From the NCBI GenBank assembly GCA_021833365.1, contig JAKBFV010000021.1, forward strand, positions 1-34,886: DNA of 34,886 nt, in the 5' to 3' direction. The DNA comes from Pseudomonadota bacterium. GTDB taxonomy: Bacteria; Pseudomonadota; Gammaproteobacteria; Pseudomonadales; Moraxellaceae. Position numbers and translations under genes: made by a program. Below, piece after piece: positions 1,212 to 34,886 of this stretch. A model generated the notes under the pieces. The model saw only the letters and a list, made by a program, of their open reading frames with translations. It ran no database searches and was not told the DNA's origin. Every line of letters begins with the position of its first letter. Position 1 is the first letter of the stretch.

Positions 1212-2030
1212 TCAGTGCATGCTGACCTTGATCGAGGTATTGCCCATATTGACGTTGACCAGAGCGACATCGCCCATGGCCGGCCCTGATGCCGCCGAGC
1301 CCTGCACCTGAATGTTCTGGAAGACGATGGAATCGATGTGGGTGGGGACGGCGATCTGGATATCGCCATTGGCGTCGATCGGCAAACCGGTCGCCGGCGT
1401 CGCCGCACCGTTGGCGTAGACGGCACCATTGATCGAGATATTGGCCTGTATCGGCAACACGCTCTTAACCGCATTGATCGCCATGCTGACTGCATCAGTG
1501 CCACCCTGCGGCGTCAGCGCCTGCGCCAGTTGTGCAAGATTACCACCTTGCACCTGCCCGGTCGCTGCGCTCGTCGCCATCGCCTGCTGCGTCATGACCG
1601 TGCTGACAGCACTGTTGGCCGGCGTCGCCGCATGCCCGACCGCTGAAGACAGCGCTGCCGCGACATTGATGCCACCCTGACCACTGACCGACTCCAGCCC
1701 CTCATCGTCGATCGACTGCAGACCACTGCCGCGCATCTGCGCTGCCACCGCCATCTCCGGTGCCGCCACCGCCGCCATCGGCGCCAAGGGGGCAGCCACG
1801 GCAGCGGCCATGGTGATCGCCAGACGATAACGCTTCTGCCGCTTCAAGGCGCGCTCGAGCTGAGCGGCGGTCAACCAGCCCTGAGCCTGCAAGACCTCGC
1901 CCAAACGCAGACCAGATGTCGATTGAACGAGCAGTGCCTGATCTAGTTGCGCACGGGTGATCAGGCCCTTGTCGATCAGCAATTCCCCCAGGCGTGAACG
2001 CTGGATGGCTACCTCTTTCTTGAACATCAT
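1212..2030 (-). CDS. MshEN-motif protein with FilF/DUF6160-like C-terminal part
   Basis: The product has 272 residues. Residues 13-36 and 42-65 are two copies of the 24-residue MshEN consensus (RLGxxL..xG....xxLxxAL..Q), beginning RLGELLIDKG and RLGEVLQAQG and ending in Gln36 and Gln65, with a five-residue linker. In MshE-type ATPases and related proteins this tandem motif binds cyclic di-GMP. A hydrophobic Ala-rich segment (about 70-90) follows and could be a membrane anchor or late signal. Next comes LQSIDDEGLESVSGQGG, the 'D-E-L..VSGQ' signature near the start of mature FilF/DUF6160-type surface proteins. The remainder is rich in Ala, Gly, Asn, Val and Ile, as in secreted beta-rich proteins. 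ATG codons lie at 2030 and 2027, with GGGG upstream. The gene is divergent from the patatin gene. A cytoplasmic c-di-GMP sensor joined to a surface domain is inferred. Confidence 0.7.
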   Translation of the reverse strand: MMFKKEVAIQRSRLGELLIDKGLITRAQLDQALLVQSTSGLRLGEVLQAQGWLTAAQLERALKRQKRYRLAITMAAAVAAPLAPMAAVAAPEMAVAAQMRGSGLQSIDDEGLESVSGQGGINVAAALSSAVGHAATPANSAVSTVMTQQAMATSAATGQVQGGNLAQLAQALTPQGGTDAVSMAINAVKSVLPIQANISINGAVYANGAATPATGLPIDANGDIQIAVPTHIDSIVFQNIQVQGSAASGPAMGDVALVNVNMGNTSIKVSMH

Positions 2031-4875: not shown

Positions 4876-6204
4876 TCAGAACAACTCGATCTTAGGTCGC
4901 GCGCTGGTCGCCTCAGCCACACCCCCGCCGGTGACGGATTGGTGCGCTTGCCGCTGGCTATCCATGGCGTAGCCGGCAAACAGCGACTCCAGAGCTTGCG
5001 TCAGGCGACTCATCGCGATGGGCTGCACCAGGGCCTGCGGCAACTGCTCACATACCTGCACTGCGCATTGATCGAGGGCATCGAGAGCGACCTTGACATG
5101 CTCCACCTGCTGGCGGGTGATGTCCTGAAACTGCAACTCGCTGAGCATGGCCAGGATCTGTGTATCGACCGCGGCCGAACCTTGATCGAGCACCTGAGTG
5201 AACTGGATGACATGCTTGGCGAGCTGATGAAAATTGTCGCCCGCCTGCTTCAACTGATCGGCGATATGACCGAACTCGGTGAGCTGCTTTTCTCCCGAAT
5301 TGATGCCCATTCTTTCATTGAGCTCATCTTGAATGGAGTGGCTCACCGCATCGATACCCTGGGTGATCTTGGAGGCCGCCTGCCCCGTCTGTTCGGCCAG
5401 GGCGCGGACTTCCTCAGCCACCACCGAGAACCCACGCCCGGCTTCACCGGCGCGTGCCGCCTCGATGGCGGCATTGAGAGCGACGAGATTGATCTTTTTC
5501 GCCACATCCTGAATCAGCGCCGCCAGCGGGGTCAGCGACGTCACCTGACTGATGATCAGCTCGAAGGTGTGATGCGCCTCTCTGATGTCCTGGGCGCGGC
5601 TCTTCTGATAGGACTTGAGGCTTTCCAATGCCTCGATGTTCTCGCGGACTTGGCCATCCATGGAACTCGACAGATCTTGCGAATAGAGCTTGGCGCGTGC
5701 CACTTCCTCGAGTACCTGGCGCAGTGCTCCCTGAATCACATTGATACGCTCGACGATGGCGGTCGCCGCCTTCTCAGAAGCATCGGTCACCTGACCGAGA
5801 TGCGTGCGCAGTACGCGATTGAAGGTGGGCATATCCTGCAGCCCCTGCTCCACCTCGTCGAAATTGCGCAGGGCGAGTGCCTGCATGCGCGCCATCATCT
5901 GCATACTTCTGACATGGCTGCCATCCATTCTATCGATGACCCAATACTGGATCAGCGCATGATAGAAAAAAGTCAGTGCTGCCATCAGCAAGGCGATGCC
6001 GATGACGATATAGGGGTTTTCCCAGATATCCAGCATCGATAACGTTGAGTGCTTATGCACGAAATGCACGCCCTGCAGAAAGACCAGGACGAGCAGAAAT
6101 TGCAGGATGAAGACGCCTGCACCGACATATTTACGCAAGGCCCAACCGGAGCTGTACTGCAACATGTCGGGCACTAGATCGTTGCTTTGACGGGGACTAA
6201 CCAT
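4876..6204 (-). CDS. Methyl-accepting chemotaxis protein, two membrane helices, no HAMP
   Basis: The product has 442 residues, with membrane helices at about 27-49 and 64-86, a very short outside loop, and no recognisable sensor or HAMP domain. The signalling hairpin tip is at about 236-262 ([19 protein letters not shown], then [16 protein letters not shown]), which docks CheA and CheW. A second coiled-coil region contains [13 protein letters not shown]. The short ectodomain suggests sensing in the membrane or by a partner. The C-terminus is KIELF, sharing its last four residues (IELF) with CheD two genes upstream; the NWETF-type CheR tether is absent. It is the last gene of the operon, 7 bases after the hemerythrin stop codon, so the hemerythrin is a plausible partner. 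Function as a receptor is well supported; the signal is unknown. Confidence 0.88.
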
Positions 6205-6646: not shown

Positions 6647-7255
6647 TCAAAAAAGTTCGATATTTTTTGTCTTGCTGGCTGGCGCAGCACGGCCCTGGTC
6701 TTCCTGCCAGCGCCACTCCTGCTCCAGCACCTGTTCCAGCACCTCAGTTTGGGCCGAGAGCCGTCGGCAAAAAACGTCGCCATTTGGCAGGGCGATGACC
6801 TTGCGCGACCAGGGGCCACCGAGATCCTCGGCGAGGAGCGGGATACCTTCGCGCCGCAACCAGTTTTGTGCAAAGCGGGCATTGTTTTCGCCGATCATGG
6901 TGTGCAAGGAATGCACGACCGTGCCACCACCGAAAGCCTTCGCCTGCAAGTGCTGCTTGCGACAGCCGCGCGCCATCATGGCATTGACCAGAACCTCCAT
7001 GGCATAGTCACCGGCCAGCACGGTATCGTGATCTTCCGGCAAGGTATGGGCGTGATGCCGTTGCGGCAGCATGAAGTGATTCATGCCACTCAACTGCTGG
7101 CGAGGATCATGCAGACAGACCGCGACGCAAGAGCCGAGTACCGTCGCCAGAGGACGCTCCCCCTCCACTGCCCAGCCACCAGGATGCAAGACCTTGGCCT
7201 GACGCTCGAGCAGTCTGGGATCGAGCACGTCTGCTTTTTTCGCGTCATGGTGCAT
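6647..7255 (-). CDS. cheD: Chemoreceptor glutamine deamidase CheD
   Basis: The product has 202 residues. CheD converts specific receptor glutamines to glutamates and can bind phosphatase partners. The catalytic Cys43 (LGSCVAVCL) and His60 (GMNHFMLP) are present, and the conserved FGGGTVV and IGENNARF segments follow. The gene overlaps the end of cheB by 11 bases, so the two are translationally coupled. An extension of about 35 residues beyond the core ends in KNIELF, sharing the IELF tail with the receptor two genes downstream. The tail could be a docking peptide; this is inference. The ATG at 7255 is the only sensible start. Confidence 0.93.
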
Positions 7256-8297
7256 GGCTGAACCTCACCAGGGTGTCAGCGATCGCCGGCAGCGGCACAA
7301 TGCGATCGACCGCACCGCGCTTGATCGCTTCTTGCGGCATGCCGAAAACGACACAGGTGGAAGCATCCTCAGCCACCGTCTGCGCTCCGGCTTCATGCAT
7401 GCTCAGCAGGCCGCGCGCGCCATCGTCGCCCATCCCCGTCATGATCACTCCCAAAGCATTGCGCCCTGCCGTCTGCGCTACCGAACGGAACAAGACATCG
7501 ACCGAGGGTTTGTGGCGATTGACGACGGGACCATCGCTAACCTCGACATAATAGCGGGCGCCACTGCGGCGCAGCTGCATATGCCGACCACCGGGAGCGA
7601 TCAGGACCTGGCCGGTGATGACGCGATCACCGTGGCAGGCCTCCTTGACCTGAACCTGGCACAGGCTATTCAATCGTTCGGCGAACAGGGCGGTGAATTT
7701 CTCCGGCATATGCTGAACGACGACGATGCCACAGACCGAGCGTGGCAGGGGCACCAGTACCGCCTCCAGGGCCTGCGTACCGCCTGTAGAAGTGCCGATG
7801 GCGATCACCTTCTCCGTCGTCTGTGCCAGGGCGGGCGCTTGCGCCATGGCCGGTATCGTCCGTGCGACCAACGCTTTCGGCCGCAAACGTCGCCCCTCGA
7901 CTTGCGCAGCGGCCTTGAGCGTCGCGATGAACTGTGCGGACTCCTCTTCAAGAAAACTGTTCAAGCTCAGGCGCGGCTTGGTGATGATGCTGACGGCGCC
8001 TGCCGCCATCGCTTCGATCGCCATCTGCGTGCCCTGCTCGGTCAAGGATGAACAGATCACCACCGGCGTCGGCCGTTCCGCCATGATTTTGCGCAAAAAA
8101 GTCAGGCCATCCATGCGCGGCATCTCGATGTCGAGGAGCAGAACATCCGGCCACTCCTTATTCATCGCCTCCATGGCGAACAGGGGGTCGCTCACCGCAG
8201 CGAGCAGTTCGATCTCGGCATCACGAGCGATCAGCGTGCGCGCCGCACGACGCACTACCGCCGAATCATCCACCACCAACAAGCGAATCTTGGCCAT
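7245..8297 (-). CDS. cheB: Protein-glutamate methylesterase/response regulator CheB
   Basis: The product has 350 residues. It removes methyl groups from receptor glutamates when phosphorylated by CheA. The receiver domain has Asp10/Asp11 and phosphoacceptor Asp56 ([12 protein letters not shown]). After a linker, the esterase domain shows the triad Ser170 (IGTSTGG), His196 (VVVQHMPEK) and the Asp at about 292 (GMGDDGARG). ATG 8297 ([11 protein letters not shown]) is preferred because it gives the usual family start. An in-frame GTG at 8306 would overlap cheR by 7 bases and is the alternative. It lies directly after cheR and overlaps cheD. Confidence 0.95.
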
Positions 8298-8299
8298 CT

Positions 8300-9115
8300 T
8301 CAGCACCGTACACGCGTGTAGATGGTCGGCCGCACCGCCGTCAGGCCGCTGACCAATCCATTCAGGGACTCGGAATGTCCGACGATGAGATAGCCCTCAG
8401 GCTTGAGCCGACTGAGCAGATGCTCGATCACCCGCTTTTTGGTTGGAGCATCGAAGTAGATCATGACGTTGCGCAAAAAAATGACGTCCATGGCCATGAC
8501 CTGGGGCTGCGCTTGCAGAAGATTCAGCACCTGGAAGCCGACATGATCACGCAAGCGCCGATCGATCAAAAAAGTTCCCTGCTGGCGCCCCACCCCCTTC
8601 AGGCAATATTTCTTTTTGTAGGCCTCCGGCAAGCCCCTCACCCTGGCCTCGTCATAATGCGCCGCTTCTGCCTGCGCGACCGCCGCTGCCGAGATGTCCG
8701 TCCCATACACGCTCCAGGGCGCGTCAAAACCGAGCACATCGGCCAAGACCATGGCCAGGGTCCAGACTTCCTCACCGCTACTGCAGGCGGCACTCCACAG
8801 ACGCGGCGCGTCGACATCGCCAGAGCGCAGCCACTGCGTCAGCCAGTGGAAGTGCTGTTCTTCACGAAAAAAATAGGTCTCATGCGTGGTCAGAAGATCG
8901 ATGAGGCGCTGCCGCTCCGCCCCATCATCGCCATGACTGACATAGCGGTAATAAGCAGCAAAATCAGGCAGATCGAGTTGTCGCAGACGATGACTCAGGC
9001 GGCCGATGACGAGCGGTTTCTTGACATCGCTCAAGACCACTCCGGCGCTTTGATAAATCAGCCGCTGAAACAGCTGAAAATCATGATCCGACAGCTCCGT
9101 CAGAGCGTCTGTCAC
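8300..9115 (-). CDS. cheR: Chemotaxis protein methyltransferase CheR
   Basis: The product has 271 residues. It transfers methyl groups from S-adenosylmethionine to receptor glutamates. The N-terminal helical domain (about 1-80) has the conserved RL..RLR pattern. The SAM-binding domain contains [21 protein letters not shown] and [13 protein letters not shown]. No TPR tail is present. The start is GTG 9115, whose GTGA overlaps the cheW stop. Both receptors in the operon lack an NWETF-type C-terminal tether, so this CheR is expected to bind receptors directly at the methylation helices. Confidence 0.95.
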
Positions 9116-9666
9116 GCCGTCTTCTCCCGTCCGTCCGCCTCCAGCGACTGCCCCTGCTCGCGGGCGCTGAGCAAGGTGGCGATTTCATCGATCGACAGCA
9201 CCCGGTCGATATTGAGAAGAATGACAAAACCGCCGTTGATCTTGCTCATGCCATGAATGAAATCAGCGCGGATCTTGCTGCCAAAAGCCGGCGGTGGCTC
9301 GATATCACTGGCCGGCACGTCGAGCACCTCGGAGACCGAATCGACCACCATGCCCATGTCATGCCGCCCCTCCTCGCTGTTGAGCTCGACGATGACGATG
9401 CAGCTGCGCTTGCCGATCTGCTGCCGCTCATGGCCAAACCGCGCACCGAGATCGATCACCGGCACGACACTGCCGCGCAGATTGATGACACCGCGGATAA
9501 ATGAGGGCATGAGCGGGATCTCGGTGACCTGCCCGTACTCGATGATCTCCTTGACGTGCAGGATGCCGACCGCGAACATCTCGCCGTGCATCCAGAAGGT
9601 CAAGACCTGCACCGCTTCGGCCTTGACCATGTCCTGTGAACCTCGCACCTGACTCAGGGTAGCCAT
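9112..9666 (-). CDS. cheW: Chemotaxis coupling protein CheW
   Basis: The product has 184 residues and consists of one CheW domain that links receptors to the CheA P5 domain. Typical segments are present: LTFWMHGEMFAVGILHVKEI, LMPSFIRGVINLRGSVVPVID and IHGMSKINGGFVILLNID. The ATG at 9666 has a strong GGAGGGAGGA ribosome site just upstream. The gene follows the receptor gene by 15 bases and overlaps cheR by four, so it belongs to the same transcript. The acidic C-terminal extension after the core is short and unremarkable. Confidence 0.95.
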   Translation of the reverse strand: MATLSQVRGSQDMVKAEAVQVLTFWMHGEMFAVGILHVKEIIEYGQVTEIPLMPSFIRGVINLRGSVVPVIDLGARFGHERQQIGKRSCIVIVELNSEEGRHDMGMVVDSVSEVLDVPASDIEPPPAFGSKIRADFIHGMSKINGGFVILLNIDRVLSIDEIATLLSAREQGQSLEADGREKTA

Positions 9667-9681
9667 GTCCGATCCTCCCTC

Positions 9682-12417
9682 CTAATAGCGGACAAATTCA
9701 CCTTCATCGAGAGAGGGCGCCGATGGCGGGCGCGCCGCTGAACGCGGTTTGTTGTTGCTGCTAGGGGACGACGGACGTGTCGCGCTCATCTGACGATGGC
9801 CATCGGTCTTGAAAAAGCTGACCAGCTGTTGCAGCTGGCTCGACTGCGCCCCCAACTCCTCGGCCGTCGCCGCCAGTTCTTCCGAAGCCGAGGCATTCTG
9901 CTGCGTCGCTTTGTTCAGCTGCCCCATGGCGCCGTTGATCTGCGCCACGCCGCTCGACTGCTCATCCGAGGATGCCGAGATCTCCTGTACCAGATCCGAG
10001 GTCTTCTTGATGGAAGGCACCATGGCGCCGAGCAGAGAGCCGGCTTTTTCCGCCAGATCCACCGACGAGCCGGCGAGATTGCCGATCTCCTGCGCCGCCA
10101 CCTGCGAACGTTCCGCCAGCTTGCGCACCTCGGCTGCGACCACGGCGAAGCCCTTGCCATGCTCACCGGCGCGCGCCGCCTCGATGGCGGCATTCAAGGC
10201 GAGGAGATTGGTTTGATAGGCGATGTCATCGATGATGCCGATGCGGTCAGCGATCTGCTTCATCGCTGCGACCGTCTCGGAGACCGCCTTGCCACCTTCC
10301 TGTGCCTCGCTGGCGGCCTGGGTGGCGATATTGTTGGTCACTTTGGCATTGTCGGCATTTTGATTGATCGATGAAGTCATCTGCTCCATCGCCGCCGTAG
10401 TCTCCTCGACCGAAGCGGCCTGTTCCGAAGACGACTGCGACAGCGACTGGGCGGTCGCCGAGACTTGGCCGGCGGCATTGCTGAGATCATCGGCGGCGAC
10501 ATTGATCTGCACCAGAGTATCCGCCAGCTTCTCGACCGTGCTGTTGATGGCGGATTTCATGATATCGAAATCGCCCTGATAATTACGCGTGATTCTTTGT
10601 GTCATGTCGCCTGCGGCCATCGCCTCCATCACCCGCCTGACGTCGTTGAAAGGAACGATGACTGAATCGAGGGTGGCATTGACGCCTTCGACGATCTTGC
10701 GGAAGTCACCGCGATGCGCCGTCGCATCAGCGCGTGTCTCCAACTGCCCGGCCAGAGCCGCAGCACTCAAGCGTTGCGCATCGACGATGAGCGCCTTGAT
10801 ATTGGCGCGCACCTGTTCGACGGTGACATTGATGAAGGCTTTTTTACCGGGGAATTGTTCCAGCTCAGCGTCGAGATTGCCTTCGCCAAACGATTGAATA
10901 CAGGCCATCGCCTTCTTCTTCACCGCGATATGGCCAAAGACCATGGTGTTGACGCCGCGCGCCATGGCGGCAAAGTCACCCTTGAAGTGCGACTCCTCGA
11001 TCTTGACGTCGATATCGCCGAGGTCATGCTCGCGCGACATGTGATTCATCTCGCTGATGAAATCCTTGATGTTGCTGCGCATGGTCTCGATATTGTCGTT
11101 GATGAAGGACTTCTTGCCGGGGAACTTCTCCAGCGGCGCGTCAAAATTACCTTCACCGAACTCCTTGATGCAGGCCATCGCCTTTTTCTTCACCGCGATG
11201 TGGCCGAAGACCATGCCATTGACGCCGCGCGCCATGGCGGCAAAATCGCCCTTGAAGTGCGACTCGTCGATCCTGACGTCGATGTCGCCGAGGTCATGCT
11301 CGCGCGACATGTGATTCATCGCGCTGATGAAATCCTTGATGTTGCTGCGCATGGTCTCGATATTGTCATTGATGAAGGACTTCTTGCCGGGGAACTTCTC
11401 CAGCGGCGCGTCAAAATTACCTTCGCTAAACTCCTTGATGCAGGCCATCGCCTTTTTCTTCACCGCGATGTGGCCGAAGACCATAGCATTGACGCCGCGC
11501 GCCATGGCTGCGAACTCGTTGTGAAACAGAGATTCATCGATCTTGACGTCGATATCACCGGCGTCATGTTCACGCGACATGCGGTTGAGTTCACCGAGCA
11601 ATTGCTGCAAGGCCCCTTGCAGTAAGTGCATCGACGCCAGGACGCTGTGCGCGGGTATCACGCCATTCGCCTGCACCAGACTCAGATCGCCCTCTGCCAG
11701 TTTGCGCGCCATCTGGCTCAATGCAGCAGGCTCGGCGCCCAACTGCGCCAGGAGACTGCGTACCGTATTCCAGCCGAGCAGCAGCAGTGATAAGACCGCC
11801 AAAACGGTCAAGACGATCATCGCTTCCATGATGCTGGACTGGCGTTCCTGCCCCTGTGCCACCTGCGCTGTGGCCTGCTCATCACTATGGCGGATCAGCT
11901 GCAGCATATTCTCATCCGCCGCCGCATAGGGGATGGCCGCGGCATTCAGATCTTTGGTGATGGCGGCGATCATATCGCTGCGGCTGGTGACGCCGCTGGT
12001 ACTCACTTGGCTGAGCAGACCGAGCGTTGCCAGTGATGCCGTATGATAGGCAGCCAAACTCGACTGTGCCTGCGACCAAGTCGACTGTTCGGCGTCAGAC
12101 AAGCTCCCCTGGTAACTGTTGGCTGTCTCATCGAGATCCTTCCAGGCGGCCTGCGCGTTGCTCACAGCGTCGGCATCGTCACGCCCTTGAATCACAGCGA
12201 TATAAGCGGTCATGATGTTGCGACGGATCTCGATCAAGTCGAAACGCAGATGGTTGAGCTTTTCCAGCTTGCCCATCTGTACCTTGCCGACCTGATTGAA
12301 GACTGCTTGATCGCTCTGAAAACCGTGCAGGGCCATGCCGGATAAAGCCAACATGACCACCAGGGATACGGCGACCAGTAGATACAGCTTACTGCGCACA
12401 CTCATCGTTTCCATCAT
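9682..12417 (-). CDS. Methyl-accepting chemotaxis protein with 4HB sensor and tandem poly-HAMP array
   Basis: The product has about 911 residues. A first membrane helix lies at about 9-31 and a second at about 208-232. Between them is a helical region of about 170 residues resembling the four-helix-bundle (4HB_MCP) ligand domain. A long HAMP-like array follows, including three near-identical 90-residue units ([11 protein letters not shown], then [11 protein letters not shown]), and a further HAMP pair ([13 protein letters not shown]). The signalling domain has the tip [21 protein letters not shown] and a C-terminal linker ending DEGEFVRY, with no NWETF tether. The start is ATG 12417, with ATG 12405 or GTG 12450 as alternatives; none has a strong ribosome site. 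It lies between cheA and cheW and is the main receptor of the array. The ligand is unknown. Confidence 0.92.
10771..11580 (-). repeat. Three 270-bp tandem repeats encoding HAMP-like units
   Basis: Within the receptor gene the sequence repeats with an exact period of 270 bases (90 codons), with units ending at 11580, 11310 and 11040. The two central units (11041-11310 and 11311-11580) are nearly identical at the DNA level over long stretches; the third (10771-11040) has drifted in its 5'-most part on the plus strand. The frame is kept throughout, so the repeats add or remove whole signalling modules. Such high DNA identity points to recent duplication or ongoing homogenisation by recombination. 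Confidence 0.9.
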
Positions 12418-12481
12418 ACACCCCGATTCGATTCGCCCATCAAAGAACACGCATGAACATCAGCCTGGAGACTCGTCAACA

Positions 12482-14644
12482 TCAACGCTGCGCCATCTCC
12501 GTCAGCAGCGCCTTCGGCATCCCTTCCCGCCCGACCACCAGACGTGCCAGCGCCTGCACATCGAGAATCAAAGCGACCTCGCCCGAGCCGAGAATGGTTG
12601 AACCACTGAGGCAGCGCTCATGACGAAAGAGCGCACCGAGCGGCTTGATCACCGTCTGAAACTCGCCGAGTAGACGATCCACCACCAACCCGGCCCGACC
12701 ACTGTCATGCCGGATCACCACGACATTACGCCGCCGTGGCGCCTCTCCAGGGATAGCAAAGAGGCGGCGAATATCGATCAGCGGCAGTACTTCACCACGC
12801 AAGTTGAGAAAAGAGTCGCCGCGTTGTGTCTGATTGAACTCGACACATTCGACGACGCAGTCGAGGGGAAGGACATAGGTGGCCTCGCCAGCGCCGGTGA
12901 GAAACCCGTCGATGATGGCGAGGGTCAAGGGCAGTCGGATGGTGAAGGTCGATCCCTTGCCGAGACTGCTGTTGACCTCGACCGTACCGCGCAGGGCCTG
13001 GACATTCTTACGTACGACATCCATCCCGACGCCACGCCCGGAGATATTGCTGACCTGATCAGCGGTACTGAAGCCAGGCTCGAAGATGAGGTTGATGATT
13101 TCCTTGTCGTTGAGCACCTGACCGGCATGGATGAGACCGCGCTCGATGGCCTTGGCCTGTACTCGCGCCGTATCGATACCGCGCCCATCATCGCTCACCT
13201 CGATGACGATGCTCCCTGAGTCATGGCGCGCCGACAAGCCGACCTTGCCCATCGCCGACTTGCCGCAGGCGATGCGCTCACTCCCGGACTCGATGCCGTG
13301 ATCGATGGCATTGCGGATCAGATGCATCAAAGGATCGGCGATCTTCTCGACCACCGAGCGATCGAGTTCGGTGTCACCACCGCTGACGCTGAGATCGATC
13401 TCCTTGTTCAACTCCTTGGCGACATCCCTGACGACGCGATAAAAGCGGCGAAAAGTCTCGCCGATCTGCACCATATGCAGCTGTAGAGCCGAGTCGCGGA
13501 TATTTTCCACCAAGCGACCGAGCAAGGACGTCGCCTCGACCAGACTCCCTTGTCCTGACTGGCGCGCCAGCAGACTAGCGGATGCACCTGCGATCACCAG
13601 TTCTCCGACCAGATCGATGAGCTGATCCAGCTTGTCGGCTTTGACTCGTATCAGGCGCGCATCGGCATTGAGTTTATCCTGAACCTGTCTTTGCTTGCTG
13701 ACGGCGGCTTCGACCAGTTCAGGCTGCACCACCTGCTGCTGCACCAGAATCTCGCCCAGGGGCGGCACCTCGGCATCCATCGCCGACCAATTTTCCTGAC
13801 CACGCAGACCTTGCGCCAGTTCATCCTGGGTGAGAACACCACTGCGCACCAGCATTTCACCGAGGCGCATGCCCTCCTCAGGCAGGGCCTGCAATTTGGC
13901 GACAAAGTCATCGATGCGCGCTGGCGGAGGCAGAATGCTCAAAGAGCACTCATCGCGACAAAACATGAAAACTTTTTCGAGCTCATCCTTGCCGACCTCG
14001 GTGCGCAGAACGATGGCGAAACCGAGGTAGCAGGACTCGACGTCAAAATCCACCGCCGTGGGCAACTCATCGACCAGGGGCTGCATGAACAAGACCGTAC
14101 CCAGCGAGGCGAGATGGCGCAAAAATGCCAGAGGCTCCATGCCGCTGCGCAGCATGTCGCGACCGAAGCGCACCTGTACCAGCCAGCCCTCCGAAACCGA
14201 TTCCGGCAATTGCACCTGCGGGCGCCTTTCAGTGCGACTGGGCGGCGCGATGCCATCGACGAGCGGCGCTGCGCGCAGTTCGGCCAGGCATTGCGCCAGC
14301 AGTGCCTGCTCCTGCTCATCGGCCTGCATCTGTCCGCTGGCGAGGCGATTCAGCATGACCCCGAGATGGTCGCTGGCGCGCAGCAAGGCTGAGATCAGGG
14401 AACTGGAAATGGCGCAGCGATGGTTGCGCACATCATCGAGCAGGGACTCGAGCACATGGGTGAATTGTTCGATATCGGTGCACTGGACAACGCCAGCGCC
14501 GCCTTTGATGGTGTGAGCCGCGCGGAAGATGGCGTGTACCGTCTCCTCATCATGGTCACCCGCTTCCAGTCGCAACAAACCTTCCTCGAGCACCTCGAGG
14601 AGTTCGAGGGCTTCCTGGATGAAGACCGTATAGATGTCGTCCAT
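12482..14644 (-). CDS. cheA: Chemotaxis histidine kinase CheA with an MshEN-like insertion
   Basis: The product has 720 residues. It phosphorylates the operon's response regulator and CheB. In order: HPt domain (1-120) with phosphoacceptor His44 (AAHTIKGGAG); a P2-like region (about 150-240); a tandem MshEN-type motif (260-318); the P3 dimerisation region (about 330-395); the ATPase domain with N box HLIRNAIDHG (441-450), DDGRGID (485-491), FEPGFS (521-526) and GRGVGMD (536-542); and a CheW-like P5 domain (about 570-705). The first MshEN motif (260-283, RLGEMLVRSGVL to RGQ) matches the cyclic di-GMP consensus in full. The second (295-318) has Pro for Arg and Gln for Gly. Ribosome site GGGAGG precedes ATG 14644. 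It is 2 bases from the STAS gene. Confidence 0.95.
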   Translation of the reverse strand: MDDIYTVFIQEALELLEVLEEGLLRLEAGDHDEETVHAIFRAAHTIKGGAGVVQCTDIEQFTHVLESLLDDVRNHRCAISSSLISALLRASDHLGVMLNRLASGQMQADEQEQALLAQCLAELRAAPLVDGIAPPSRTERRPQVQLPESVSEGWLVQVRFGRDMLRSGMEPLAFLRHLASLGTVLFMQPLVDELPTAVDFDVESCYLGFAIVLRTEVGKDELEKVFMFCRDECSLSILPPPARIDDFVAKLQALPEEGMRLGEMLVRSGVLTQDELAQGLRGQENWSAMDAEVPPLGEILVQQQVVQPELVEAAVSKQRQVQDKLNADARLIRVKADKLDQLIDLVGELVIAGASASLLARQSGQGSLVEATSLLGRLVENIRDSALQLHMVQIGETFRRFYRVVRDVAKELNKEIDLSVSGGDTELDRSVVEKIADPLMHLIRNAIDHGIESGSERIACGKSAMGKVGLSARHDSGSIVIEVSDDGRGIDTARVQAKAIERGLIHAGQVLNDKEIINLIFEPGFSTADQVSNISGRGVGMDVVRKNVQALRGTVEVNSSLGKGSTFTIRLPLTLAIIDGFLTGAGEATYVLPLDCVVECVEFNQTQRGDSFLNLRGEVLPLIDIRRLFAIPGEAPRRRNVVVIRHDSGRAGLVVDRLLGEFQTVIKPLGALFRHERCLSGSTILGSGEVALILDVQALARLVVGREGMPKALLTEMAQR

Positions 14645-14646
14645 CG

Positions 14647-14973
14647 CTACCCTCCCGTCGCCGGAAGCACCAGTGGATCGCCAAAGAAAGCCGCCAGATT
14701 GAGAAACTCGAACACACCGACGACGGCATTGGAGTGCGCGACGATGCTCATCTCATGACCGAGGCGACGCGACTCCTGCTTGCACACCATGAGCAACTGC
14801 AGGCCGGCCGTGTCGAGATCGTCGACCTGGGACAGGTCCATCTCGACGCGCTGAAAATCCTGTACGGCAGCCAGCAAGTCCGGCCGCATGGCCGCCACTT
14901 CATAAACCGTGCAAGCGCCATACAGGCGCAAGCGCGTCGTCGTCGTGCTGAGATCCTCCTTCTCTATGGCCAT
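14647..14973 (-). CDS. STAS-domain protein
   Basis: The product has 108 residues and consists of one STAS domain, as in anti-sigma-factor antagonists. The phosphorylatable position of the DSAGL motif is Thr55 here (LDTAGLQLL), which can still accept a phosphate in principle. No cognate kinase or phosphatase of the SpoIIAB/SpoIIE type is visible in the window. GGAG precedes the ATG. It is wedged between the response regulator and cheA with 12- and 2-base gaps, so it is part of the chemotaxis transcript. STAS proteins are known in several alternative chemosensory operons. Its partner here may be CheA or a receptor; this is inference. Confidence 0.85.
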   Translation of the reverse strand: MAIEKEDLSTTTTRLRLYGACTVYEVAAMRPDLLAAVQDFQRVEMDLSQVDDLDTAGLQLLMVCKQESRRLGHEMSIVAHSNAVVGVFEFLNLAAFFGDPLVLPATGG

Positions 14974-14985
14974 CTCTGCGCACTC

Positions 14986-15351
14986 CTAACGCAAAACCAT
15001 GCCCAAGGTGGCGATCAGATCCTCGGCTGTCACCGGCTTGACCAACCAGCCGCTGGCTCCCGCCGCCTTGGCCTCGGCGCGCTTGCTCTGCTGCGATTCG
15101 GTGGTGAGAAATAAAATGGGCATGAACTTGTAAGCCGACAGGGCGCGCACCTTTTTGATCAGCTCGATGCCATTCATGCCCGGCATATTGAGATCGGTGA
15201 TGAGAAGATCAGTCTTCTTGCCTGCCTCGAACAAGCGCAAGCCCTCTTCTGCGCTGCGCGCCTGCTCCACGGCGTAGCCCGCCTTCATCAGGATGTTCGA
15301 AACTGACAACAAAATCGTGGCGGAATCATCCACCAGCATGATGGTCTTCAT
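14986..15351 (-). CDS. cheY: CheY-like single-domain response regulator
   Basis: The product has 121 residues and is a stand-alone receiver domain, the likely output of the CheA in the same operon. Key residues are Asp8 and Asp9 (LVDDS), phosphoacceptor Asp53 (ITDLNMPGMNG), Thr83/84 (LFLTTES) and Lys105 (LVKPVTAED). ATG 15351 is chosen because the receiver fold begins there and GGGAAA lies upstream. A 27-residue extension to 15432 is unlike any family member. It is the first gene of the ten-gene operon. Whether it acts on the flagellar motor or another target cannot be told; no flagellar genes are in view. Confidence 0.92.
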   Translation of the reverse strand: MKTIMLVDDSATILLSVSNILMKAGYAVEQARSAEEGLRLFEAGKKTDLLITDLNMPGMNGIELIKKVRALSAYKFMPILFLTTESQQSKRAEAKAAGASGWLVKPVTAEDLIATLGMVLR

Positions 15352-15703
15352 CGTTTCCCACCCCACGTCAGGCTGCTTGGATCGCGAAGAAGTCATGCAC
15401 ACCACGCTGCAGACTGGCCCACATCCATACATCGAGCAGATCTACCATAGAAGGCATCTCTAACCGGATCTTGGATCGCCAAAGACGGCGCGTCATGACA
15501 GAGATCGCTCTACAAATCTAGCCAAGAATAGGAAACTTGCCAGAAACCCTCTGAGTCATGGCAGATTGAGTTGATGCAGGTCAAGATGGCGTCAAGTGGA
15601 CGGCGTGATGCGACGCTTGGCACAGGCGCCGTGGTGGGCGATATGGACCAAGATCGCCCGATCAGTCAGGTCAGCGAAGATGAGGACACGGACGGAGGGA
15701 AGA
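15352..15703. other. Intergenic region upstream of the chemotaxis operon
   Basis: This 352-base stretch separates the operon's first gene from tRNA-Lys and must hold the operon promoter. I could not find a convincing sigma-70, sigma-28 or sigma-54 promoter facing the operon. No T-run terminator is visible after tRNA-Lys. The only open frame here runs into the tRNA on the other strand and has no coding character. Confidence 0.5.
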
Positions 15704-32095: not shown

Positions 32096-32141
32096 CCCCC
32101 GCAAAGCCCAGTATTCTCAAGGCTTACGGGGGTTTTCTTTT
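32096..32141 (+). terminator. Rho-independent terminator of tRNA-Ser
   Basis: CCCCCGCAAAGCC pairs with GGCTTACGGGGG around a 13-base loop and is followed by TTTTCTTTT. It ends the tRNA-Ser transcript. Confidence 0.9.
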
Positions 32142-32192
32142 GCACGATAGCCCTCGCTTCACCACCGAAATCCACGGTTCACCACAGCCAGT

Positions 32193-32214
32193 CTGTAGGT
32201 ATTGCTGTAGGTAT
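32193..32214 (+). repeat. Short direct repeat upstream of the integrase
   Basis: CTGTAGGTAT occurs twice with a 12-base period, 22 bases before the integrase ATG. It may be an integrase arm-type or excisionase site, or part of the integrase promoter region. This is inference from position. Confidence 0.5.
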
Positions 32215-32235
32215 GAATCGGGAGAGGGCGGCACG

Positions 32236-32460
32236 ATGCCTACAAACACCTTGACCGATGCCCGTTGCAAGGGCGCCAAGCCCGCCGAGAAGCCCTACAA
32301 GCTCTTCGATGGCGGTGGTTTGCATCTCTATGTGTCCGCGACAGGCTCGCGCACCTGGCGTCTGGCCTATCGTGTGGCGGGCAAGCCGCAGACCATGAGT
32401 CTGGGGCCGTACCCAGAGGTGTCGCTGCGTGACTCCTGTGGAGCGGCAGTTCCTCGATGA
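32236..32460 (+). pseudogene. Truncated tRNA-associated tyrosine integrase (DUF4102 N-terminal domain only)
   Basis: From ATG 32236, with GGAGAGGG upstream, about 66 residues match the N-terminal DNA-binding arm of P4-type integrases: DARCKGAKPAEKPYKLFDGG, then MSLGPYPEVSLRD. Intact members have about 400 residues and carry the catalytic Arg-His-Arg-His-Tyr domain; here the similarity ends at about 32433, followed by 8 unrelated residues and a stop. The protein cannot recombine DNA. Its place just after tRNA-Ser is typical, so it marks an island that has lost its own integrase and is now fixed. Confidence 0.9.
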
Positions 32461-33414: not shown

Positions 33415-33417
33415 GTG

Positions 33418-34017
33418 ATGGCCGATCATGAGCAGCCCAGTGCGTTGAAGCAAGTCCGGCAGGTCCTGAAGCCTGGGCGTGTGTACCGTCGCGCTGATTT
33501 GTTGGCGGTCTCCAATGCAGTCGACAGACACCTGCAAGCGTTGGTGCAGGCAGGTGATCTACGGAAACTGGCGCCTGGGCTCTACTACGCGCCTCGCAAG
33601 TCCGTGTTTGGCGAGCTGCCGCCTGACGATGCCGAGCTGGTGCGCAGCTTTCTGCGGGATGATGACTTCCTGCTTTTCTCTCCCTCTGCTTACAACACGG
33701 TCGGGCTGGGCACCACGCAGCTCTACAACCGCACGGTCGTCTACAACCGTAAGCGGCATGGGCACTTCAAGCTGGGCAATCGCGAGTTCGATTTCCGGGT
33801 GAAGCCCCGATTCCCGCATGCCTTGTCTGCGGAGTTTCTGTTTGTGGACCTGCTCAACAATGCAGATGAGCTGGCTGAGGATGTATCGGCTGTCTGGGCG
33901 CGCGCGGCAAGCAAGTTGAAGCAGTTGGATAGCGATGGCCTGAGTCAGGCGTTGCGTGCCTATGGCAATGTGACCACGCGCAAGCGGCTGGAGGGCGTTT
34001 TCCGTGCTGCTGCATGA
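33418..34017 (+). CDS. AbiEi-like antitoxin/transcriptional regulator (DUF6088 type)
   Basis: The product has 199 residues. An N-terminal winged helix (about 10-60) reads RVYRRADLLAVSNAVDRHLQ, then LAPGLYYAPR, which fits type IV antitoxins of the AbiEi/DUF6088 group. The C-terminal part contains SPSAYNTVGLGTTQLYNRTV. Such proteins neutralise AbiEii without direct binding and repress the operon. ATG 33418 is taken as the start; GTG 33415 is adjacent. It overlaps the toxin gene by 14 bases, so the two are coupled. GC content and codon use differ somewhat from the core genes, in line with acquisition by the tRNA-Ser island. Confidence 0.85.
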   Translation: MADHEQPSALKQVRQVLKPGRVYRRADLLAVSNAVDRHLQALVQAGDLRKLAPGLYYAPRKSVFGELPPDDAELVRSFLRDDDFLLFSPSAYNTVGLGTTQLYNRTVVYNRKRHGHFKLGNREFDFRVKPRFPHALSAEFLFVDLLNNADELAEDVSAVWARAASKLKQLDSDGLSQALRAYGNVTTRKRLEGVFRAAA

Positions 34018-34886
34018 CCATCCTGATTTCGAGGGTCTGCTGGGCTTGGTCGCGTCCGAGCGCGGGCTTGATCCGGTACTGGTCGAGAAGGACTACTGGA
34101 TCATGCATTGCCTCTGGGGGCTGCAGCAGCAAGGTTTTCGCTTCGAGCTGAAGGGCGGCACATCACTGTCCAAAGGGTTCGGTGTCATTCACCGCTTTTC
34201 GGAAGACATTGACCTGCGGATCGAGCCTCAGCCTGGCCAGGATGTGAAGCAGGGGCGGAACCACAGCAAGCCAGCACATGTGGAGAGTCGTCGGATTTTT
34301 TACGACGAAACCGCCAGGCGCATTCGAATTCCCGGGATCGAGCAGGCGATTCGCGATACCGAGTTCGATGACATGCCCCAGTTGCGCAGTGCAGGCATCC
34401 GGCTGGTCTATCGGGCGCGTGCCGGCAGTCTGGCGGGCATCAAGGATGGCATCTTGCTGGAGCTGGGCTTTGATGACACGACACCCAACCGGCCAGTGAC
34501 GATATCGTCCTGGGCCTGGGAGACAGCGACGAGGGCAGGGGTGCCAGTCACCGACAATCGTGCTCAGGATGTGCCGTGTTACGCCCCCACCCACACGTTC
34601 GTCGAGAAGTTGCAGACGGTATCGACGAAGTACCGCACGCAGTCGGGCAGCATGGCGTTGCCCAGAAACTTCATGCGGCACTATTACGATCTGTACTGCC
34701 TGCTGGCGCTGGATGAGGTTCATGCCTTCATCGGCACGCCGGCCTACGAGGTGCGCAAGTCACAGCGCTTCCGCCAAGGGGATGAGTTGATCATCGCCAA
34801 GAATCCTGCCTTCCTGCTGGATGATCCAGCTGAGCGAGACCGGTTCCGGCGGGCGTATGAGCAAAGTGCTGCGCTTTACTATCAGG
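34004..34886 (+). CDS. AbiEii-family nucleotidyltransferase toxin, partial at window edge
   Basis: The frame starts at GTG 34004 and is open through the last base, giving 294 residues. The nucleotidyltransferase motif is clear: KGGTSLSKGF (50-59), then RFSEDIDL (64-71), carrying the metal-binding Asp pair. Further family motifs are FVEKLQT and RHYYDLYCLL. In characterised type IV systems AbiEii modifies tRNA acceptor ends or other targets with nucleotides and gives growth arrest and phage abortive infection. The C-terminus lies beyond the window. The overlap with the antitoxin gene confirms the pairing. Confidence 0.9.
   Translation, partial: MLLHDHPDFEGLLGLVASERGLDPVLVEKDYWIMHCLWGLQQQGFRFELKGGTSLSKGFGVIHRFSEDIDLRIEPQPGQDVKQGRNHSKPAHVESRRIFYDETARRIRIPGIEQAIRDTEFDDMPQLRSAGIRLVYRARAGSLAGIKDGILLELGFDDTTPNRPVTISSWAWETATRAGVPVTDNRAQDVPCYAPTHTFVEKLQTVSTKYRTQSGSMALPRNFMRHYYDLYCLLALDEVHAFIGTPAYEVRKSQRFRQGDELIIAKNPAFLLDDPAERDRFRRAYEQSAALYYQ

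Follow-up and report, generated by a model that had tools for sequence, protein, structure and literature searches.

Histidine kinases on which cyclic di-GMP (c-di-GMP) acts directly are known from Caulobacter, namely CckA and ShkA, which are not CheAs and whose sites are unrelated to the GSPII domain. For GSPII domains themselves (MshEN-type domains), the features that matter for binding have been described in MshE and PilF. The isolated MshE N-subdomain binds c-di-GMP without the C-subdomain, high-affinity binding needs Gly3, and Ile in place of Leu at positions 17/21 causes merely a 2.4-fold loss (PMC12002112). In PilF GSPII-A, the positions needing restoration included Gln24 of both motifs, one construct with Ser at position 1 of motif II did not bind, and perfect motifs did not suffice for binding by the full-length domain (PMC12002112). 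In PilF GSPII-C, which binds c-di-GMP, Pro335 occupies position 1 of motif II (PMC11731258). Wang et al. 2016 (PMC5013675) hold that perfect motifs are possibly unnecessary, and they name an association of MshEN with CheA in one sentence, without experiment.

Here we describe such a pairing in the window, by which we mean the whole stretch of 34,886 nucleotides that was analyzed. The open reading frame at 12482..14644 (minus strand, as are all features of this gene) translates into a complete CheA histidine kinase of 720 aa, as its core domains (Hpt, H-kinase_dim, HATPase_c, and CheW) score above their Pfam cut-offs and its catalytic motifs are present, with AHTIKGG, RNAIDHG, DDGRGID, and GRGVGMD all found in the sequence. 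The P1/Hpt domain with its phospho-His motif spans aa 4-93 (14366..14635; Pfam PF01627, E 3.2e-13), the P3 dimerization domain aa 330-388 (13481..13657; PF02895, E 8.8e-10), the P4 ATPase domain with its ATP motifs aa 437-574 (12923..13336; PF02518), and the P5 CheW-like domain aa 582-701 (12542..12901; PF01584). An MshEN N-subdomain (GSPII-N) with an exit helix occupies aa 258-330 (13655..13873) and adjoins the P3 domain as delimited by Pfam. The sequence-only reading had placed this segment between P2-like and dimerization domains, of which the position before P3 stands; the “P2-like” label for aa 150-247 (13904..14197) rests on the b-a-b-b-a-b order predicted in a low-confidence model, and Pfam gave no P2 match there at E<=1. 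That model, of aa 150-399, is too poor for domain geometry, and a fold search with it returned no match at E<=0.001, just generic ferredoxin-like folds.

Within the segment, motif I (RLGEMLVRSGVLTQDELAQGLRGQ, aa 260-283, 13796..13867) agrees with the published 24-residue consensus at all 11 fixed positions, as the sequence-only reading had stated, and it is followed by a linker of 11 residues instead of the usual five (aa 284-294, 13763..13795), again as described, whose length differs between orthologues. Motif II (PLGEILVQQQVVQPELVEAAVSKQ, aa 295-318, 13691..13762) had been said to fit most of the consensus except at Pro295 and Gln304. Both deviations are real, and two more had been missed, Val311 and Val315, which stand where the consensus has Leu, so that the count is 7 of 11 fixed positions with Pro1, Gln10, Val17, and Val21 off consensus.

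The resemblance was carried further by profile searches, which bore out the MshEN assignment, with a score above the curated NCBIfam cut-off and matches in the PDB, Pfam PF05157 being silent. The NCBIfam model of the MshE-related c-di-GMP motif (NF053729) scored 38.5 bits against whole CheA (curated cut-off 38; E 7.4e-10) and 46.7 bits against the segment alone. On CheA the match falls into two separate stretches, probably on account of the long linker, and a six-frame genome search scored these stretches separately, each alone below the cut-off. All 24 CheA segments in our alignment (A4) match NF053729 at E<=0.001. A profile built from them had 14 matches at E<=1 among all PDB sequences, every one an MshEN/GSPII protein (PilF, E 4.8e-17; PilB, 6e-8; MshE, 1.4e-4), and the CheA segment as a single query was enough to find PilF (E 6e-7). 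Comparison by hhalign of the CheA segments with 29 GSPII domains of other proteins gave a probability of 99.4%, the set having mostly been collected with the CheA profile and hence not being independent. The genome's own PilB, found via its C-terminal subdomain, provides an independent check on homology at the sequence level, with the CheA profile matching just upstream of that subdomain (E 4.9e-4).

Could short amphipathic helices have produced this likeness by chance? Pfam might seem to say so, as scans of whole CheA, the segment, and the single motifs yielded no MshEN (PF05157) match, not even at E 1 for whole CheA. This silence is uninformative, however, because in the genome's own pilus-type ATPase PilB (L001) PF05157 matched only the stretch downstream of motif II, and the NCBIfam, PDB profile, and fold searches are concordant and dozens of orthologues have the same segment. 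None of 2000 shuffles of the CheA protein exceeded 9 fixed positions, and we ruled out chance resemblance on this control together with the PDB profile matches and the NF053729 score; it is extremely improbable, and the resemblance of the segment to MshEN is, on these sequence comparisons, homology. DUF4388 was also considered for the segment and dropped, its Pfam score lying only under its cut-off. Since no PF05157 match (E<=1) marks a C-terminal MshEN subdomain and P3 comes directly after the segment, we claim the N-subdomain only.

The predicted fold agrees with this assignment. AlphaFold2 was applied to CheA aa 242-331 with three orthologues, and of five models two were good and three poor. 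In the model of aa 242-331 (pLDDT 82), helices lie at model positions 20-27, 32-46, 55-61, and 67-89. In Foldseek against the PDB, the first eight matches are all c-di-GMP-bound PilF-GSPIIB or MshE (probability 0.97-1.00, E only 0.27-0.7), and in a VIA comparison the model superposed on residues 7-65 of c-di-GMP-bound MshE with Z 9.3 and 1.8 A over 59 residues. A Z of about 9 for a helical bundle would be insufficient taken alone; the first nine chains in the VIA ranking are all of the MshEN/GSPII family and the next, an unrelated chain, has Z 3.5, and this gap, with the sequence evidence, makes the predicted MshEN-type fold convincing. The expectation of an MshEN-like fold, raised by the sequence-only reading, was thus borne out by the predicted fold.

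We then asked of the segment what published work asks of a binder. Counting the window's family once, Gln24 is kept in 38 of 39 CheAs in motif I and 40 of 41 in motif II, and Gly3 in 39/39 and 39/41, respectively. Pro stands in the place of motif II Arg1 in 19/41 CheAs, but also in 17/31 other GSPII domains, and Gly10 of motif II is retained in just 21/41 CheAs, the genome's own PilB having His at that position. As far as its residues tell, CheA has what is strictly required. Binding is likely on several lines taken together, namely the passed NF053729 cut-off, PDB matches that are all MshEN/GSPII, a predicted fold like c-di-GMP-bound MshE and PilF, and the conserved Gly3 and Gln24, and we regard it as quite probable that the CheA segment binds c-di-GMP.

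A different outcome would be a GSPII fold that was kept while c-di-GMP binding was lost, leaving a structural spacer or a module on which other proteins dock (e.g., the STAS protein, CheY, or the receptor array). Motif II has degenerated at 4/11 positions, and non-binding GSPII domains exist (PilF GSPII-A, PMC12002112; Xanthomonas GspE, PMC5013675). Moreover, the segment co-occurs with a STAS gene beside cheA, and the N-domain of Xanthomonas PilB, one of the fold matches, was solved in complex with a PilZ protein. Docking, however, would not need Gln24 and Gly3, which are nearly invariant in both motifs, and the published non-binder PilF GSPII-A lacks both Gln24 residues. We therefore consider a spacer or docking role unlikely, if still a serious contender.

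The explanation that we put first, and hold to be somewhat probable from sequence and model, is an MshEN N-subdomain that clasps c-di-GMP and biases the kinase in one direction or the other. CheA residues ~258-325 would form the four-helix GSPII-N between the P2-like region and the P3 helix, with the two motifs clasping one c-di-GMP in the fashion of MshE. Arg260 would stack on one guanine and Leu/Val clusters on both, the backbone amides of Gly262 and Gly297 would contact the Hoogsteen edges, and Gln283 and Gln318 would contact ribose and phosphate. Because the last helix of motif II leads into P3, the ligand could shift the joint between them: a bundle clamped by c-di-GMP may stiffen or re-orient this joint, and the changed reach of P1 and the P2-like region to the P4 ATPase domain may in turn bias phosphotransfer in a STAS-linked chemosensory pathway. 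Control of the kinase by c-di-GMP is somewhat less probable than binding. The explanation also draws on the c-di-GMP-binding PilF GSPII-C, with Pro and Val at motif II positions 1 and 17, on binding by the MshE N-subdomain alone, and on the 26 GGDEF matches of the genome. Against it as a whole stand the absence of Arg1, Gly10, Leu17, and Leu21 from motif II, the PilF GSPII-A results given above, a linker longer than that of MshE, and the decay or loss of the segment in part of the clade. A perfect motif I beside an imperfect motif II and a linker of variable length might also suit c-di-GMP bound for other ends than kinase activity: the ligand might act on how the array is assembled or positioned, or the motifs might be half sites, each pairing with its partner in the other CheA subunit, the segment adjoining the dimerization domain. 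We judge this quite unlikely, as the isolated monomeric segment is predicted as a complete MshE-like bundle.

The segment is not peculiar to this genome. Searching 369 genomes of the class with a profile of 10 CheAs gave 38 places in 31 genomes at >=46 bits, in frames of 720-880 residues, and every fetched frame but the divergent L092 has the CheA kinase motif; kindred CheA segments are also present in the phylum beyond this class (L210, L211). In a tree built by a quick method from 76 CheA cores, with an arbitrary root, the segment is present in 33/39 rows of one branch (support 99). Some of the remaining rows have remnants only, and such decay or loss within the clade means that CheA can do without the segment. 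A STAS gene lies beside cheA or one gene from it in 21 of the 23 segment-bearing loci whose surroundings were read, which are related and not independent, compared with 3/20 loci fetched as lacking the segment with such a gene beside or near cheA, one of which retains motif I. Most loci that carry the segment have a relative of the second chemoreceptor upstream of cheY. Among plasmids, a search with the CheA segment returned two named carriers only, Aeromonas sp. BC14 and Pseudomonas sp. HR96. From these sequence comparisons, the segment is an old, clade-marking, sometimes lost module of gammaproteobacterial CheAs, found mostly beside STAS and CheY genes. Similar repeat segments also precede P3 in three CheAs outside the main clade (L098, L160, and L089), suggesting that the module was gained more than once or is of older origin. 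Taken together, sequence and modeling establish homology, a predicted fold, and clade-wide conservation for the CheA segment; that c-di-GMP directly switches the whole clade of STAS-linked gammaproteobacterial CheAs, acting through an MshEN N-subdomain built into the kinase, is a tentative extension, which we see as almost evenly poised. If true, the CheA kinase itself, beyond its receptors, would be a c-di-GMP sensor, giving STAS-linked systems an input from this messenger.

In the window, cheA adjoins a gene for a STAS-domain protein, its conserved neighbor (14647..14973, minus, like the rest of the operon; PF13466, E 4.4e-12), next to a CheY-like response regulator (14986..15432; PF00072). 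On its other side lie genes for a multi-HAMP chemoreceptor (9682..12450; Pfam HAMP_N3, McpB_HAMP_2, and MCPsignal), CheW (9112..9666; PF01584), CheR (8300..9115; PF01739), CheB (7245..8306; PF01339 and PF00072), and the second chemoreceptor (4876..6204; PF00015). The cheR and cheB genes overlap (window 7245-9115), so there is no cheD between them; the relative in Pseudomonas sp. HR96 has cheD there. The genome holds 26 GGDEF matches, flagellin, and other CheA paralogues, one of them in a cluster with CheR, CheD, and CheB. The suggestion that c-di-GMP control of this CheA would couple motility directly to the messenger went too far, given these paralogues and nothing that links the STAS-associated operon to the flagellar motor.

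NF053729 matches three proteins in this genome, namely CheA, the PilB-type ATPase, and a 272-aa protein encoded in the window (1212-2030, minus; 64.2 bits). The last carries the second MshEN-type tandem motif of the window, at aa 13-65, its linker being of the usual 5 residues. A hydrophobic stretch resembling an export signal comes next, then a long tail, and relatives of the protein, of 237-241 aa, have the same order. At the other end of the window, two overlapping genes (33415-34885, plus) have the look of an AbiE-type toxin-antitoxin pair (a weak DUF6088 match and AbiEii), near an integrase-type Arm-DNA-binding domain at 32140-32460.

The open-access literature yielded no experiment on a CheA with an MshEN-type domain, and the word MshEN is absent from the main text of a 2023 survey of CheA architecture (PMC10782961). 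A Pfam-based survey would overlook the domain, PF05157 having matched, where checked, only the C-terminal subdomain. The MshEN-CheA pairing was known before, and we did not find the clade-wide pattern described in the open-access literature; the MshEN-CheA fusions in Wang et al. 2016 (PMC5013675) pair domain and kinase as here. If c-di-GMP binds the segment, a CheA would sense the messenger itself. Compared with MshE of Vibrio cholerae (5HTL; Wang et al. 2016, PMC5013675), CheA has the same tandem 24-residue motifs, four-helix bundle (as predicted), and twofold Gly3 and Gln24, but it has no C-terminal subdomain, its linker runs to 11 residues, its motif II is weaker, and it is a kinase rather than an ATPase. 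The best sequence match of the segment is PilF GSPII-C of Thermus thermophilus (PilF 303-360; PMC11731258, PMC12002112), a reported c-di-GMP binder which, like CheA, has Pro at motif II position 1 and, in the A4 profile alignment, Val at position 17; unlike CheA, it has a 7-residue linker in that alignment, keeps Gly10 and Leu21, and carries a further motif. By gene order alone, the operon resembles the F7 stage 1 clusters of Ortega et al. 2020 (PMC7184735), which comprise STAS (anti-sigma-factor antagonist), cheY, cheA, Aer2-like receptor, cheW, cheR, cheB, and McpA-like receptor genes, but in this operon the STAS gene separates cheY from cheA, and cheR-cheB has no intervening cheD; CheAs of CheY-CheA-CheW-Aer2 clusters are mostly without the segment. 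Ancestral F7 systems, with clusters similar to the present one, have a role described as unclear, for which the CheA segment offers a direct test.
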